Origin: Thermoanaerobacterium sp. RBIITD
Lineage (GTDB): Bacteria > Bacillota > Thermoanaerobacteria > Thermoanaerobacterales > Thermoanaerobacteraceae
Reading direction: 5' to 3'
Assembly (NCBI RefSeq): GCF_900205865.1
Contig: NZ_LT906662.1
Coordinates: forward strand, 124,001 to 188,000
Length of the DNA stretch: 64,000 bases
The translations under genes were made by a program, and so were the position numbers. Below are positions 10,557-62,585 of the stretch, one piece after another. Every line of letters begins with the position of its first letter. Positions within the stretch are counted from its first letter, which is position 1. The notes under the pieces are model-generated. The model had not been told where the DNA came from. It was given only the letters and a program-made list of their open reading frames with translations, and ran no database searches.

Positions 10557-11735
10557 CTTATTTTTATTATAAAATTCTTTCTTTATATCACCCAACAAAT
10601 TACCATCTGTTAAGACGTCTATCCCTGTTTGAGCTAATGCTTTAGCTGCCAATAAAGACATTTCTTTTGCATAATTTGAACCTGCAGCTTCACAAAACTT
10701 CTGTGTATGAAGGTCAATCTTTTCTTTTGCAATATTAATAAACGGATGTATAGACGGTATAATATAGCTAACACTGCCCATATCTGTCGAGCCAATAAAA
10801 CCTTGTTCATATGAAATCTCATTATACCCAAGTCCCTTTAAATTAATTGCAAATCTGTCAGCAAGAATTTTATTTGTAACCAAATCATCAAGTTTAATAG
10901 AACTTCTATATGATAATGTAGTTCCCGTTGCTATTTCAGCAGCTTTTCCGCAATTTATTACTTTCTCCACTACTTCATTTAGACAATTTTTGTTCAAAGC
11001 TCTTACAAAGAAATATGCCTTTGCACTATCGGGTATGATATTTGGAGCTTTTCCACCATCAGTTATAATTCCATGTATCCTAACATCAGACTTTAATTGC
11101 TGTCGTAATGCATTTATATTATTAAATAACAATATAAGTGCATCTAAGGCATTTACACCTAAATGAGGTGCAACAGCTGCATGGGACGGTTTTCCTTTAA
11201 AAGAAAATTCTATATCCTGTAATGCTAGTGATGATACATATGGCGTCGTAATGTCATATGGATGTATCATCATAGCAACATCTATATCATTAAAAACGCC
11301 TTTTTTAATCAGCAAAGTTTTATAACCTAAATTTTCTTCAGCCGGTGTTCCTATAAGCACTATATTGCCCTTTATTTGATCTGATAAAATGCTTAATGCT
11401 ATCCCAGCTCCAAAAGATGTAGATGCTATTATATTATGTCCACATGCATGACCCAATTCAGGAAGCGCATCATATTCGAGTATGTAAGCAATTGTCGGAC
11501 CATTTCTAAAACCTGATTTTTTTGCAACAAATGCAGTGGGTAAATCCTCAATATAATTTATTTCAAAGCCATATTTTTTAATTTTATCAGTTAACAAATT
11601 AACTGCATTAAACTCTTTTCCCCCAATTTCTGGATTCTCGTATATTCTATCTGCAACATCAAAAATATCACTTTTTATTTCATCAATTATTTCATCAATT
11701 TTATTTTTTAATGATTTTACTGCATTGCTATCCAC
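10542..11735 (-). CDS. M20 family amidohydrolase/aminoacylase
   Basis: A protein of 397 aa of the M20D group (AbgB/HipO/IAL-like). Metal-binding motifs are visible: EYDALPELGHACGHN, PAEENLGYK, a HP pair in MMIHPYD, and a dimerisation lid domain with GKPSHAAVAPHLGVNALDA. Such enzymes release amino acids from N-acyl or amide conjugates. It is the last gene of a SAM-riboswitch-controlled operon (hom, metQ, then this gene), which suggests a methionine-related N-acyl compound as substrate; that is an inference. The start is a GTG at 11735 after AAGGATGTG. A longer ORF in another frame inside it is only a shadow. Confidence 0.88.
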   Translation of the reverse strand: MDSNAVKSLKNKIDEIIDEIKSDIFDVADRIYENPEIGGKEFNAVNLLTDKIKKYGFEINYIEDLPTAFVAKKSGFRNGPTIAYILEYDALPELGHACGHNIIASTSFGAGIALSILSDQIKGNIVLIGTPAEENLGYKTLLIKKGVFNDIDVAMMIHPYDITTPYVSSLALQDIEFSFKGKPSHAAVAPHLGVNALDALILLFNNINALRQQLKSDVRIHGIITDGGKAPNIIPDSAKAYFFVRALNKNCLNEVVEKVINCGKAAEIATGTTLSYRSSIKLDDLVTNKILADRFAINLKGLGYNEISYEQGFIGSTDMGSVSYIIPSIHPFINIAKEKIDLHTQKFCEAAGSNYAKEMSLLAAKALAQTGIDVLTDGNLLGDIKKEFYNKNKDKDV

Positions 11736-57714: not shown

Positions 57715-57748
57715 ATAGTCATATTGAATTTTATTGGGGGAGTTTAAG

Positions 57749-59461
57749 GTGTATTTAAAGAAAAGTAAGCATAGTTCTGGAAGAATTTATCTTTCTATTG
57801 CAGATGGTTATCGTGATAAAGAAAGAGGACATACTAGGACCGTTACAATTAAATCTCTTGGATATCTTGATGAACTTCAAAAACAATACGATGACCCCAT
57901 TGCATTTTTTGAACAGCAGGTTAAAGAATTGAACAAACAAAAGGCTATGAAAAAGGCTCCAATTACGCTTAGTTTTTTCCCAGATGAAAAACTTTTAGCT
58001 AATACGGATAACCGTAAAAACTTTGGCTATGCTGCTTTTAGTAAAGTTTATCATGAGATTGAAATAGATAAATTTTTAAGAAACAGACAACGTCACTCAA
58101 AAGAAGAATTTGATGCTAATGCCATTATGAAGCTTCTGGTATTCTCACGCTTGCTTTATCCTGCTTCAAAGAAAAAGACTTATGAAAATAAAGATATATT
58201 CTTTGAGAAATTTGATTTTTCTTTGGATGATGTTTATAGATGTCTTACTTTTTTCAACAAGCATAGTGATGCTTTACAACTTTGGATTCATGAGCGCGTT
58301 AAGTCCCTGTATGACCGTAATACAGATTTGGTTTACTATGATGTTACTAACTATTATTTTGAAATTGATGAGCAGGATGAATTGCGTAAAAAAGGAGTTT
58401 CTAAAGAACACAGACCGGATCCGATTGTGCAGATGGGATTATTTATGGATACCAATGGCATCCCCATTACATATAAACTTTTTCCAGGGAATGCTCCAGA
58501 CAAAACTACACTTATGCCTATGCTAAGAAGGATACAACATGATTATTCTTTGGGAAGAATTATTGTTGTTGCTGATAAAGGTATTATTACTGGTGATAAT
58601 ATCTGGTATACTTTATCTACTGGTAATGGATATGTATTCAGCTACTCTGTTCGCTGTGCAGATAAGGAATTTAAAAAATATGTTCTTGATGAAAATGGAT
58701 ATACTTACAAAGGAAACAACTTCAAAATAAAATCCAGACTTTATCCAAGAGAAATATTAGTAACTACCACTAAAGGGAGAAAGATGAAAAAGATAGTTGA
58801 TGAGAAGCAGGTTGTTTTCTATAGTGAAGAATATGCTTTAAAGGCAAAATATGAGAGAGCTTCTGCAATAGAAAAAGCTAAAGATTTGATTAAAAATCCG
58901 GCAAAATACAATAAATCAACATCTTATGGTGCTGCTAAATATGTAAAAAATCTTATTTTTGATGAGGAAACTGGTGAAATATTGGAAAGTGCTCGTCAGC
59001 ATCTAGCATTTGATGAGGAAAAACTAAAAGAAGAAGAGAAGTTTGATGGATATTATGCAATAGTTACCAGTGAATACAAGGAATCTGATGATAAAGTTAT
59101 TGAAATGTATCGTGGTTTATGGAAAATAGAAGAAGCTTTCAAAGTAACTAAAAGCGATATTGAAAGCAGGCCGGTGTATTTATCGTTGAAGGAGCATATT
59201 GACGCTCATTTTCTGATATGCTTTATAGCACTTGTAATCGTAAGAATACTTGAATACAGGCTGAAGGGCAAATATTCCGCTTCAGCTATACTTGAAAGTC
59301 TAGCTAAAGCATCCTGCAGTTACATTCAGGAGAACTATTATCTTTTTGATTTTAATAATGATGTTCTCGAAGATATAGGTAAAGAACTAGATATTGATTT
59401 TGGGCGGAAATATATGCGCTTAGGAGAAATTAAAAAAATTTTAGGGGAAGTAAAAAAATGA
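57749..59461 (+). CDS. IS1634-family transposase
   Basis: A protein of about 570 aa with an intact frame. The N-terminus YLKKSKHSSGRIYLSIADGY and an IS4-type DDE core are present: DLVYYDVTNYYFEIDE (first Asp), RIIVVADKGIITGDNIWYTL (second Asp) and the Y(2)R-x3-W-K-x-E box IEMYRGLWKIEEAFKVTKSD (Glu). A C-terminal domain follows the end of the catalytic fold (HIDAHFLICFIALVIVRILE). The start is best at GTG 57749, six bases after GGGGGAG; a TTG at 57734 overlaps that site. Likely the most recently active element here. Confidence 0.92.
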   Translation: MYLKKSKHSSGRIYLSIADGYRDKERGHTRTVTIKSLGYLDELQKQYDDPIAFFEQQVKELNKQKAMKKAPITLSFFPDEKLLANTDNRKNFGYAAFSKVYHEIEIDKFLRNRQRHSKEEFDANAIMKLLVFSRLLYPASKKKTYENKDIFFEKFDFSLDDVYRCLTFFNKHSDALQLWIHERVKSLYDRNTDLVYYDVTNYYFEIDEQDELRKKGVSKEHRPDPIVQMGLFMDTNGIPITYKLFPGNAPDKTTLMPMLRRIQHDYSLGRIIVVADKGIITGDNIWYTLSTGNGYVFSYSVRCADKEFKKYVLDENGYTYKGNNFKIKSRLYPREILVTTTKGRKMKKIVDEKQVVFYSEEYALKAKYERASAIEKAKDLIKNPAKYNKSTSYGAAKYVKNLIFDEETGEILESARQHLAFDEEKLKEEEKFDGYYAIVTSEYKESDDKVIEMYRGLWKIEEAFKVTKSDIESRPVYLSLKEHIDAHFLICFIALVIVRILEYRLKGKYSASAILESLAKASCSYIQENYYLFDFNNDVLEDIGKELDIDFGRKYMRLGEIKKILGEVKK

Positions 59462-60052: not shown

Positions 60053-60484
60053 TTAGGGATTGGTAGATTTGGCATTATGCTTTTCTATCGAAAAACTACC
60101 CCGATGCCCTTCTGCAATTACAGTTGCCCTTACAGTACCAGTTGCGGTAACACTATATGAAGACGTTTGTATATTTTCTTTGTGAAAATACGTTGTTCCA
60201 TCTGCACCTTTTATTAGCAAACTGATATTTCCTGCATCAGTTTTAACATTTATATCTAAGTAGCATTCCTCATCTCCTAAGTGCAAAATTTTGCTTAGAT
60301 TTCCAGTGAGCATATAGTAGTGGGCACCCCAGTTGCTTTCACCCTTGTTCTCAAAAAAGAGAACTTTCACATATGAACCAAATGAAGCAAGTCCGGTAAA
60401 TTGCATAATCGCCGCAAGAGCAATAACAGCAACTAATGTAATAATAAGCTTTTTGCCATTAAATGATTTATTTTTGTTTTGCAT
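60053..60484 (-). CDS. Membrane-anchored hypothetical protein in the PadR cassette
   Basis: About 143 aa with one N-terminal helix (about 12-30) and an extracellular domain (CYLDINVKTDAGNISLLIKG, then GTVRATVIAEGHRGSFSIEK) that looks like a small beta sandwich. The frame is open three codons further, but GGGAG eight bases before the ATG at 60484 marks the start. It directly follows the DUF2812 gene in the same operon; base composition here (near 40% GC) is higher than average for the window, suggesting recent acquisition. No family is known. Confidence 0.7.
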   Translation of the reverse strand: MQNKNKSFNGKKLIITLVAVIALAAIMQFTGLASFGSYVKVLFFENKGESNWGAHYYMLTGNLSKILHLGDEECYLDINVKTDAGNISLLIKGADGTTYFHKENIQTSSYSVTATGTVRATVIAEGHRGSFSIEKHNAKSTNP

Positions 60485-60486
60485 AG

Positions 60487-61074
60487 TCACCACTCCCTTA
60501 TCTTAGCATTGTGTCTGATTTTAATAATTTCAGATTGATACGCGGTGATTGGAATAAGGACGAGCAACCCGCCAATGCCCCAAACGATGGAACGTTGCAC
60601 ACAACCCAAAATTACAAACAATAAAAGAAACCAAAGCCAAGCGTTTCTCAAAGATTTGCAGTATTTCAACTTATCCTCATAGGAAGTATGCAATTCAAAT
60701 TCCCTACCATCGTTTTTTTTCTCAACAATAAGCAATTCACGGTCAAACGTTGTTGAATTTGTTGCTATGCGCCCACCTTTTTCAGCCCATGGGCGATAAC
60801 GTAATTTCCCAATTGAATAATTCAAATTGATGTTTTTGAAAAACACTTTATAACCCAAATCCTCTAAGAAATTGCAATAATCTGTTACGTCCTCTTTTGA
60901 TTTATGACCTATGAACTCAATCCGATATTCAAATTGTCCCGGCGCGCATTCTTCGAATTCATAAAGTAGTTTACCAGTGCGGACTAAGCGATAACCTTTT
61001 TTCGCCATTTTGTTCAGCCAATTTTCCTGCGCTGATAATAAACCATCATAAAAGCGATAATACTTTTTACTCAT
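60487..61074 (-). CDS. DUF2812 domain-containing membrane protein
   Basis: A protein of 195 aa. The N-terminal soluble part (KYYRFYDGLLSAQENWLNKM, AKKGYRLVRTGKLLYEFEEC, YRIEFIGHKSKEDVTDYCNF) is the DUF2812 domain; two membrane helices follow (about 145-180; AWLWFLLLFVILGCVQ, IVWGIGGLLVLIPITAY). DUF2812 proteins are commonly encoded right after a PadR regulator in Firmicutes, as here (six bases from the padR stop), and may take part in sensing envelope or antibiotic stress. The molecular function is unknown. Confidence 0.85.
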   Translation of the reverse strand: MSKKYYRFYDGLLSAQENWLNKMAKKGYRLVRTGKLLYEFEECAPGQFEYRIEFIGHKSKEDVTDYCNFLEDLGYKVFFKNINLNYSIGKLRYRPWAEKGGRIATNSTTFDRELLIVEKKNDGREFELHTSYEDKLKYCKSLRNAWLWFLLLFVILGCVQRSIVWGIGGLLVLIPITAYQSEIIKIRHNAKIREW

Positions 61075-61079
61075 AAAGT

Positions 61080-61397
61080 TTACCCCCCAATGATTTCAGT
61101 TGCGACCTGAATAAGTTCTTGCAGTCTTACCAGTTCTTTCTCTGCAATTTCCTTGCCTGCTTTTGTGATGAAATACTCTTTCTTTCTTCCCTCATTATCC
61201 CCGTGAAAAGCAATCCATCCCTTTTTTTGCAAAGCATTCAATGCTCCATAGAGTGTTCCTGCTCCTAAAGAAAGCCGTCCTGCTGTTTTTTCTTCAATAA
61301 ACTGCATAATAGCATATCCATGCCTTGGTGTATACAGGGAAAGCAAAATGTAAAAAGTCACTTCTGTTAGCGCACCGCCTTTCACGTTATCTCTCAA
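61080..61397 (-). CDS. PadR-family transcriptional regulator
   Basis: A winged-helix regulator of 105 aa (short PadR-s2 type). ALTEVTFYILLSLYTPRHGY, AIMQFIEEKTAGRLSLGAGT, LYGALNALQKKGWIAFHGDN and REYF-type wing (GRKKEYFITKAGKEIAEKEL) are characteristic. It heads a three-gene operon with the DUF2812 protein and the anchored protein, and most likely represses its own promoter; a perfect 23-bp tandem repeat overlaps the promoter region just upstream. Confidence 0.93.
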   Translation of the reverse strand: MRDNVKGGALTEVTFYILLSLYTPRHGYAIMQFIEEKTAGRLSLGAGTLYGALNALQKKGWIAFHGDNEGRKKEYFITKAGKEIAEKELVRLQELIQVATEIIGG

Positions 61398-61429
61398 TCT
61401 TACACCTCCAAGTTAGTTCGCTTACTATA

Positions 61430-61475
61430 ATTATTATATCAGTAACCGTAATATTATTATATCAGTAACCGTAAT
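61430..61475 (-). promoter_or_regulatory. Tandem 23-bp direct repeat, likely operator/promoter of the padR operon
   Basis: Two exact, adjacent 23-bp copies (61430-61452, 61453-61475). On the minus strand each contains ATTACGGTTACTG and a TATAAT -10 sequence, so the promoter itself is duplicated. GGTTACTGATAT is a plausible half site for PadR. They end about 32 bases before the padR start. Confidence 0.75.
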
Positions 61476-61490
61476 AAAATTCAATAGCTT

Positions 61491-61617
61491 TTAACGATAT
61501 TTTAAAATTGCAATATGGAACCACCGTTCCTGCACTTCATCCCTTATCCGGGTAAACTCCCGGTACGTATTTTCACGTTCGGCGGTAAGCTCGGAACGAT
61601 GGGCCTCGTTATCATTG
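61491..61617 (-). pseudogene. GC-rich C-terminal gene relic, unrecognised
   Basis: The minus strand reads DNEAHRSELTAERENTYREF, then TRIRDEVQERWFHIAILKYR, and stops (TAA, 61491-61493). It is about 50% GC, in contrast to its surroundings, and charged, helical text like this occurs at the ends of proteins from integrated elements. I cannot name the family. Confidence 0.45.
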
Positions 61618-61666
61618 CTATATTTTTATTATATTTTAAGCAGATTCTGATGTTAATAATTTTTTT

Positions 61667-61877: not shown

Positions 61878-62585
61878 GATCACCCGTATAACGGGTGGTT
61901 GCTCTGAGGCTATAAGCCTCTGATACTGGCCAGCGTCTAAAGGCGCTGGCTTTTACTTTGTTCAAGCCACTATGCATTTGTCACTTTTGCTCGCCCCTAA
62001 AGGGCCAAACGTACTACGGGCTACCCCTTAAAGGGGTTCTCATATTCTTTTACACTCAATTTGTCCAACATGATATCTTGCTTTTCTTGCTCTTGGATGT
62101 ATTTTTTTATCGTTGCCTCATTAAGTCCTACAGTGCTTACATAATATCCTTCCGCCCAAAAATGCCTATTCCCAAATTTATACTTTAAATTTGCATGTCT
62201 GCCAAATATCATCAATGCACTTTTCCCTTTTAAGTATTCCATAAAACTAGACACACTAATTTTTGATGGTATTCTTACCAGCATGTGTACATGATCCGGC
62301 ATTAGATGTCTTTCTATAATTTCCACTCATTTATATTGACATAGTTCTTTTAATATATCCCTAATACTTTCTTTGTATTGATTATATATTATTTTTCGTC
62401 TATACTAAAAGTGAACACAATGTGGTACTTGCACATCTAATTTGTGCGTACCATTTCATCTCATTTATTAGCCATTAAATCACCTTTCCTTTTGTTATAT
62501 AGTAGCTTGAACAACTCTATTATGAAGGAAAGGTGATTTTTTGTATAACTTCTGTCTCGCACCCACATAGCGGGTGGTTTTTGTT
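61878..62585 (-). mobile_element. IS200/IS605-family element (single tnpA)
   Basis: Strong hairpins sit at both ends: CACCCGTATAACGGGTG, GAGGCTATAAGCCTC and CCAGCG-TCTAAAGG-CGCTGG at the 3' side (61880-61950), and CACCCACATAGCGGGTG at the 5' side (about 62564-62580). This is the usual layout for Y1 transposase recognition. The edges are approximate. Confidence 0.75.
62021..62475 (-). pseudogene. tnpA: IS200-type Y1 (HUH) transposase TnpA, N-terminally broken
   Basis: The C-terminal 100 codons are intact: HLMPDHVHMLVRIPSKISVS with the HUH motif and GYYVSTVGLNEATIKKYIQE with the catalytic tyrosine. The N-terminal part from the ATG at 62475 is damaged: MANK is followed by a TGA, then KLDVQVPHCVHF-TAG-YRRK and YNQYKESIRDILKELCQY with another slip near 62335. 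An intact copy would be about 150 aa. The element is probably dead unless helped in trans. Confidence 0.85.

Follow-up and report, generated by a model that had tools for sequence, protein, structure and literature searches.

In the 64,000-nucleotide stretch of the Thermoanaerobacterium sp. RBIITD genome analysed here (hereafter the window), a padR-like repressor gene with a TTG start codon is located on the minus strand at 61080–61397. Its 105-aa product matches the PadR family model PF03551 at 53.3 bits, above the curated cut-off of 27. Directly downstream, on the same strand, lies a gene for a 195-aa DUF2812 protein (60487–61074; PF11193, 95.7 bits, cut-off 27.8), which assigns the locus to the padR–DUF2812 operon type, and the block is completed by a third minus-strand gene encoding a 146-aa protein (60053–60493) with no Pfam family at cut-off. 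Of 82 homologous loci, 80 have a DUF2812 relative on the downstream side of padR and 42 have one of the 146-aa protein there; some loci end soon after padR. A plasmid search with the PadR protein returned 111 records, three at 60–80% identity and 108 below, and an Rfam search of the window identified three riboswitches, all away from the padR promoter.

The padR–DUF2812–146-aa block, together with about 260 bp upstream (60053–61665), is found in another gene neighbourhood in G001, a further genome of the genus (locus L123). Because that neighbourhood differs from the one in the window, the block appears to have relocated as a whole; in G001, the genes on its upstream side look like a pair that we take to be of the AmmeMemoRadiSam type. 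Upstream of the promoter, the conserved stretch 61490–61640 can be read in one frame as a protein fragment (AERENTYREFTRIRDEVQERWF), the G001 version of which is interrupted by an internal stop, and the stretch looks like a gene remnant. A 575-aa ORF with a DDE transposase domain (57734–59461) adjoins the padR block, and an IS200-type Y1 transposase ORF at 62021–62326, which covers only positions 41–121 of the 121-position profile, is probably shortened at its start.

Upstream of padR, at a distance of 32 bp from its TTG start, the 23-bp unit ATTACGGTTACTGATATAATAAT is present in two identical, directly abutting copies, a proximal one at 61430–61452 and a distal one at 61453–61475 (minus strand, window coordinates). 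Two exact adjacent copies had been reported at these positions in the preliminary description, and TRF confirmed them with 2.0 copies, a 100% match and a score of 94, the top of the 72 rows obtained for the window. With up to three mismatches allowed, the 23-mer occurs at these two sites only, both in the window (mean of 0.00 in 100 shuffles) and in the 3,402,993-base genome, and this genome-wide uniqueness rules out a dispersed repeat. Exact tandem duplications with a period of 12–300 number two in the window, the other having period 12 at 11675, and across 30 dinucleotide shuffles of the window, examined for periods of 10–60, exact tandem periods reached at most 12.

The distal copy is composed of a sequence arm, L1 (61475–61463), followed by an extended -10 element, and the proximal copy of the equivalent arm L2 (61452–61440) followed by its own extended -10, the consensus TGATATAAT (minus strand) being present in both. 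The distal -10, TATAAT at 61456–61461 with TG at the extended position, is located 17 bp from a -35-like hexamer, TTGAAT, which lies outside the repeat at 61479–61484 on the same strand. The promoter scan scored this combination (TTGAAT-17-TATAAT plus TG) at 10/12; it has the form of an extended -10 promoter of the sigma-A type, with a -35-like hexamer at 16–18 bp, and its 17-bp pairing is identical to that of single-copy relatives. The proximal -10 (TATAAT, 61433–61438, minus strand) also carries the TG, but what precedes it at a distance of 17 bp is the other TATAAT rather than a -35 match, and the element is absent from the promoter-scan list. The two boxes are thus both consensus extended -10 elements but unequal, a -35-like hexamer at 17 bp being available to the distal one only. 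Consensus promoter calls are weak evidence, as the scan returned 16 sites where shuffled sequence gave 12.9 (sd 3.5). Upstream of the padR promoter, the minus strand carries another promoter-like site with a better score (TTAACA-17-TATAAT, 61656–61628, 11/12); G001 has a gap where the -10 part of this site would be, and a similar stretch is present in L013, a locus of the related genome G007.

The usual distance from a -10 element to the transcription start is 6–8 nt, and starts are accordingly expected at about 61449, within arm L2, for the distal box and at about 61426 for the proximal one. Further downstream on the minus strand lie a decayed opposite arm, R (TAGTAAGCGAACT, 61415–61427), 25 bp start-to-start from L2, and a ribosome binding site, GGAGG (61405–61409), 7 nt before the TTG start codon. 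The resulting order is -35, arm L1, -10, arm L2, -10 and decayed arm R. The counterpart of arm R reads CAGTAACCGTAAT or CAGTAAACGTAAT in many relatives. The L2/R pair reads TACT-N14-AGTA, and the consensus operator ATGT-N8-ACAT does not occur, with 0 ATGT and 0 ACAT in 61398–61490.

A related-locus search was performed, of which the best 80 of 142 loci were retained, and 83 padR promoters were compared, comprising 82 relatives and the window. Left out of the 82 relatives were L005 (same contig as L013), L001–L003 (the window itself) and L007–L012 (more distant). A left arm close to ATTACGGTTASTG was found in 77 of the 83 promoters, the six loci without it under the filter being L028, L034, L040, L055, L064 and L082. 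The TG of the extended -10 follows the left arm in 73 of these 77 promoters, a -35 with five or six of six matches is situated 16–18 bp upstream in 71, and the -35/-10 spacer is 17 in 67. When the best -35-like hexamer at 16–18 bp was considered, 59, 12 and 6 promoters showed six, five and four of six matches, respectively; with four, the -35 of the window belongs to the lowest class of the 77. The opposite arm is inverted: left and opposed arms both scored above the filter in 71 of the 83 promoters, with a start-to-start distance of 25 bp in 43 of these 71 loci. Read against this comparison, the 23-bp unit combines the extended -10 with the left arm of a conserved inverted-repeat element, an arm that lies between the -35 and -10 of a sigma-A-type promoter.

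The earlier view of the repeat as a duplicated promoter segment upstream of padR is borne out by the PF03551 assignment of the downstream gene, the promoter scan and the promoter comparison. The further proposal of a -10 box and a possible operator in each copy stands in part: each copy does carry a -10 and operator-like sequence, but a full operator per copy is rejected, as the comparison of padR promoters gives one arm per copy. Nor does this promoter contain two intact opposed arms, the left arm being doubled and well conserved and the right arm lying below the filter. Arm R scores -5.9 by the arm matrix in all three sequences of the genus and is assigned solely from its position, with higher scores (-3.1) for other words on the minus strand; the matrix was learned from the same promoters, and its scores are descriptive rather than an independent test. 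L015, the next relative in the tree, retains the right arm.

An arm search of the whole genome with up to two mismatches yielded 15 matches against 35 for a reversed control, and a wider PadR regulon was rejected on these counts. Exact arm matches in the genome are confined to the two repeat copies, and the absence of further standout arms is consistent with a dedicated autoregulator. One further match with the exact arm core, L097, showed no opposed arm adjoining it when the DNA was read by eye. In the literature searched, we found no description of an operator for padR–DUF2812 operons and no co-mention of PadR and DUF2812; the present comparison proposes a conserved operator for this operon type.

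Copy number was assessed in relatives. Three of the nine genomes of the genus have a padR match at E 1e-10, namely the genome of the window, G001 and G007 (Thermoanaerobacterium butyriciformans). The same padR operon carries one copy of the unit in G001 (L004) and in G007 (L013), and from the unit to the start codon the window shows 0 differences in 56 aligned bases to either of them. L015 also has one copy. Since G001, L013 and L015 are all single-copy, the second copy appears to have been gained in one step in the lineage of the window, and the duplication is probably derived and lineage-specific. The tree rests on 108 columns and leaves many forks open, whereas the sets holding the window are well supported (three-row set 100/93, four-row set 95/90). 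When 398 genomes of this phylum were searched for the doubled-arm pattern, which requires each arm to be followed by GATA and overlooks other forms, this genome was the single match; G001 lies outside that sample. The exact doubled core gave 0 matches in viral contigs.

The perfect identity of the copies had been taken as a sign of very recent duplication, a claim that finds no support here, as identity over 23 bases neither shows nor excludes a recent origin. For a duplication dating back to the split from G001, the nearest species sampled, the probability that 23 bases would still be identical is about 0.25 by the upstream flank (10/173) and 0.52 by padR (9/318); for the split from L013, which is more distant, the corresponding values are 0.02 (26/175) and 0.26 (18/318). 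Selection could also keep the copies alike, because the unit is unchanged among the window, G001 and L013.

Arm doubling was also observed at other padR loci. A second left arm is located 17 bp after the first in 10 loci, all from Lachnospiraceae; the 17-bp copies are partly diverged, with 12 to 16 of 17 positions identical, and four of the ten loci pass an 85% tandem test. These loci belong to one 14-row tree group (94/89, not starred), which also holds L070 and L073, read as eroded forms of the 17-bp doubling, and L049 and L063, which have one left arm. The doubling label changes at least twice within this group (a single change in 2% of bootstrap trees), so that, had the 17-bp form arisen only once, it would later have had to be lost or eroded. 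In L034, from a metagenomic genome, it is the opposite arm that is doubled: an exact tandem repeat of 15 bp lies upstream of padR (655–684 of that locus), and no left arm was found. L017 and L052, flagged as direct doublings with spacing 22 and 21, were dropped from the doubled loci because the match there was read as a right arm picked up in reverse orientation.

Tandem units of 14–40 bp with at least 85% identity are present in 6 of 83 promoters versus 11 of 2551 control windows, and exact ones in 2 of 83 versus 3 of 2551; the controls, taken from the same loci away from padR, are probably mostly coding and an imperfect yardstick. With such controls, and with maybe only three events when counted by lineage, the tandem excess rests on few cases. 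A general scheme can be drawn from them, in which the padR–DUF2812 operator evolves by repeated single-arm tandem doubling and the doubled form is a distinct three-arm autoregulatory switch, the new arm replacing the decayed one. We consider this scheme improbable; if true, arm doubling would have arisen at least three times, as the 23-bp form here, the 17-bp form in Lachnospiraceae and the 15-bp form of the opposite arm in L034.

Taken together, our preferred reading, to which we assign a probability of roughly 0.6, is that the unit forms the core of the promoter of an autorepressed padR–DUF2812 operon and was tandem-duplicated in this lineage, with autorepression persisting. Binding of PadR to its own promoter is inferred from the inverted repeat that lies over the promoter core in 71 of the 83 loci. 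RNA polymerase would mainly use the distal -10 together with TTGAAT, starting within L2 and producing a leader about 23 nt longer, while weak initiation might occur at the proximal -10, acting as an extended -10 promoter. PadR bound to L1 and to L2/R could block both promoters, and a repressor on L2/R would be expected to cover the distal start as well as the proximal promoter core. Because arm R is decayed in all three genus sequences, L2 may also serve the distal promoter as a second good arm, possibly strengthening repression; however, it is direct rather than inverted relative to L1, an orientation that may be unsuitable for the protein. An effect of the duplication on either repression or promoter strength, as originally suggested, is plausible, and overall it would probably alter the basal level or the depth of repression only modestly. 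The natural pair of one-copy and two-copy forms on an otherwise identical promoter stretch offers a model for what a doubled half-operator plus -10 does in a self-repressing switch.

Several explanations for the presence of the second copy can be weighed against one another. It may have been retained because it makes up for the decay of the opposite arm in the genus by providing a second good one, which is possible, though doubtful. The -5.9 score of that arm in the three genus sequences, set against opposed arms in 71 of 83 promoters, argues for this explanation, as do the doublings at period 17 and in L034; when arms are treated as parts of 17-bp sites, seven loci have sites 23 bp apart (arm spacing 27). 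Against it, the single-copy relatives manage with the arm in its decayed state, the new arm is in direct instead of inverted orientation, a shift of 23 bp does not correspond to an integral number of helical turns, and the period-17 copies are diverged, only four of the ten loci passing the 85% tandem test. Alternatively, the copy could be a chance slippage duplication, still unremoved and without effect on expression or repression, which we regard as somewhat unlikely. Such neutrality agrees with the occurrence of the doubling in one genome only, with the otherwise unchanged promoter of both single-copy relatives, and with the intact distal -35/-10 pairing and whole L2/R stretch. The duplication nevertheless parted the ancestral -35 from the proximal -10 and added a second consensus extended -10, and some change in transcription starts is therefore expected.

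The two -10 boxes, each in the consensus form, might raise basal expression of the operon, but the proximal one has no -35 match, both adjoin operator arms, and autorepression would buffer any rise; we consider such a promoter-up effect unlikely. Perfect tandem units can slip, and a repeat that expands and contracts could in principle tune expression between cells. There are only two copies here, however, and none of the genomes compared (one per species) has three, which makes a copy-number switch of this kind highly improbable.

The preferred reading, an autorepressed promoter whose core was duplicated, can be compared with characterized PadR systems. In Clostridioides difficile, the small regulator cdPadR1 (CDR20291_0991) is described as recognizing, within its own promoter, inverted repeats of the form TACT(N11-12)AGTA whose core is AT-rich; one of two such sites there lies over the predicted -35/-10, and the motif has 200 matches in the C. 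difficile genome (PMC5050560). The present locus resembles it in combining a small PadR regulator with a TACT/AGTA inverted repeat in its own promoter, although binding here is predicted. It differs in the spacer (14 versus 11–12), in the absence of any further exact arm in the genome, and in that the two cdPadR1 sites are separate inverted repeats and not a tandem copy. The cdPadR1 structure 5DYM is not among the 25 solved sequences matching this PadR at E 0.001, and by sequence cdPadR1 is therefore not a close relative.

In gene order, the locus is similar to the lltR (lmo0599)–lmo0600–lmo0601 operon of Listeria monocytogenes, the mRNAs of which are reported to be about 151-, 118- and 107-fold up in an lltR mutant (PMC6624303). 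In each, a PadR repressor comes first, then a membrane DUF protein, then a small third gene, but the partners of lltR are DUF1700 and DUF4097 proteins, whereas here they are DUF2812 and a 146-aa protein without a Pfam family. A related pairing is that of the HAAS-PadR dyads, proposed signalling pairs of PadR and a membrane-associated domain; the HAAS superfamily unites DUF1700, DUF1129 and DUF1048, and DUF2812 is not named in the part of that source available to us (PMC11237479). LmrR of Lactococcus lactis is a PadR-type dimer that represses its own gene, with more than one dimer fitting on one promoter, but its ATGT-N8/10-ACAT sites are absent here, and it regulates a multidrug transporter (PMC4534193, PMC5428041). 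Judged by these likenesses in sequence and arrangement, the locus probably functions in the manner of an autorepressed PadR promoter, with an operator of a different sequence type.
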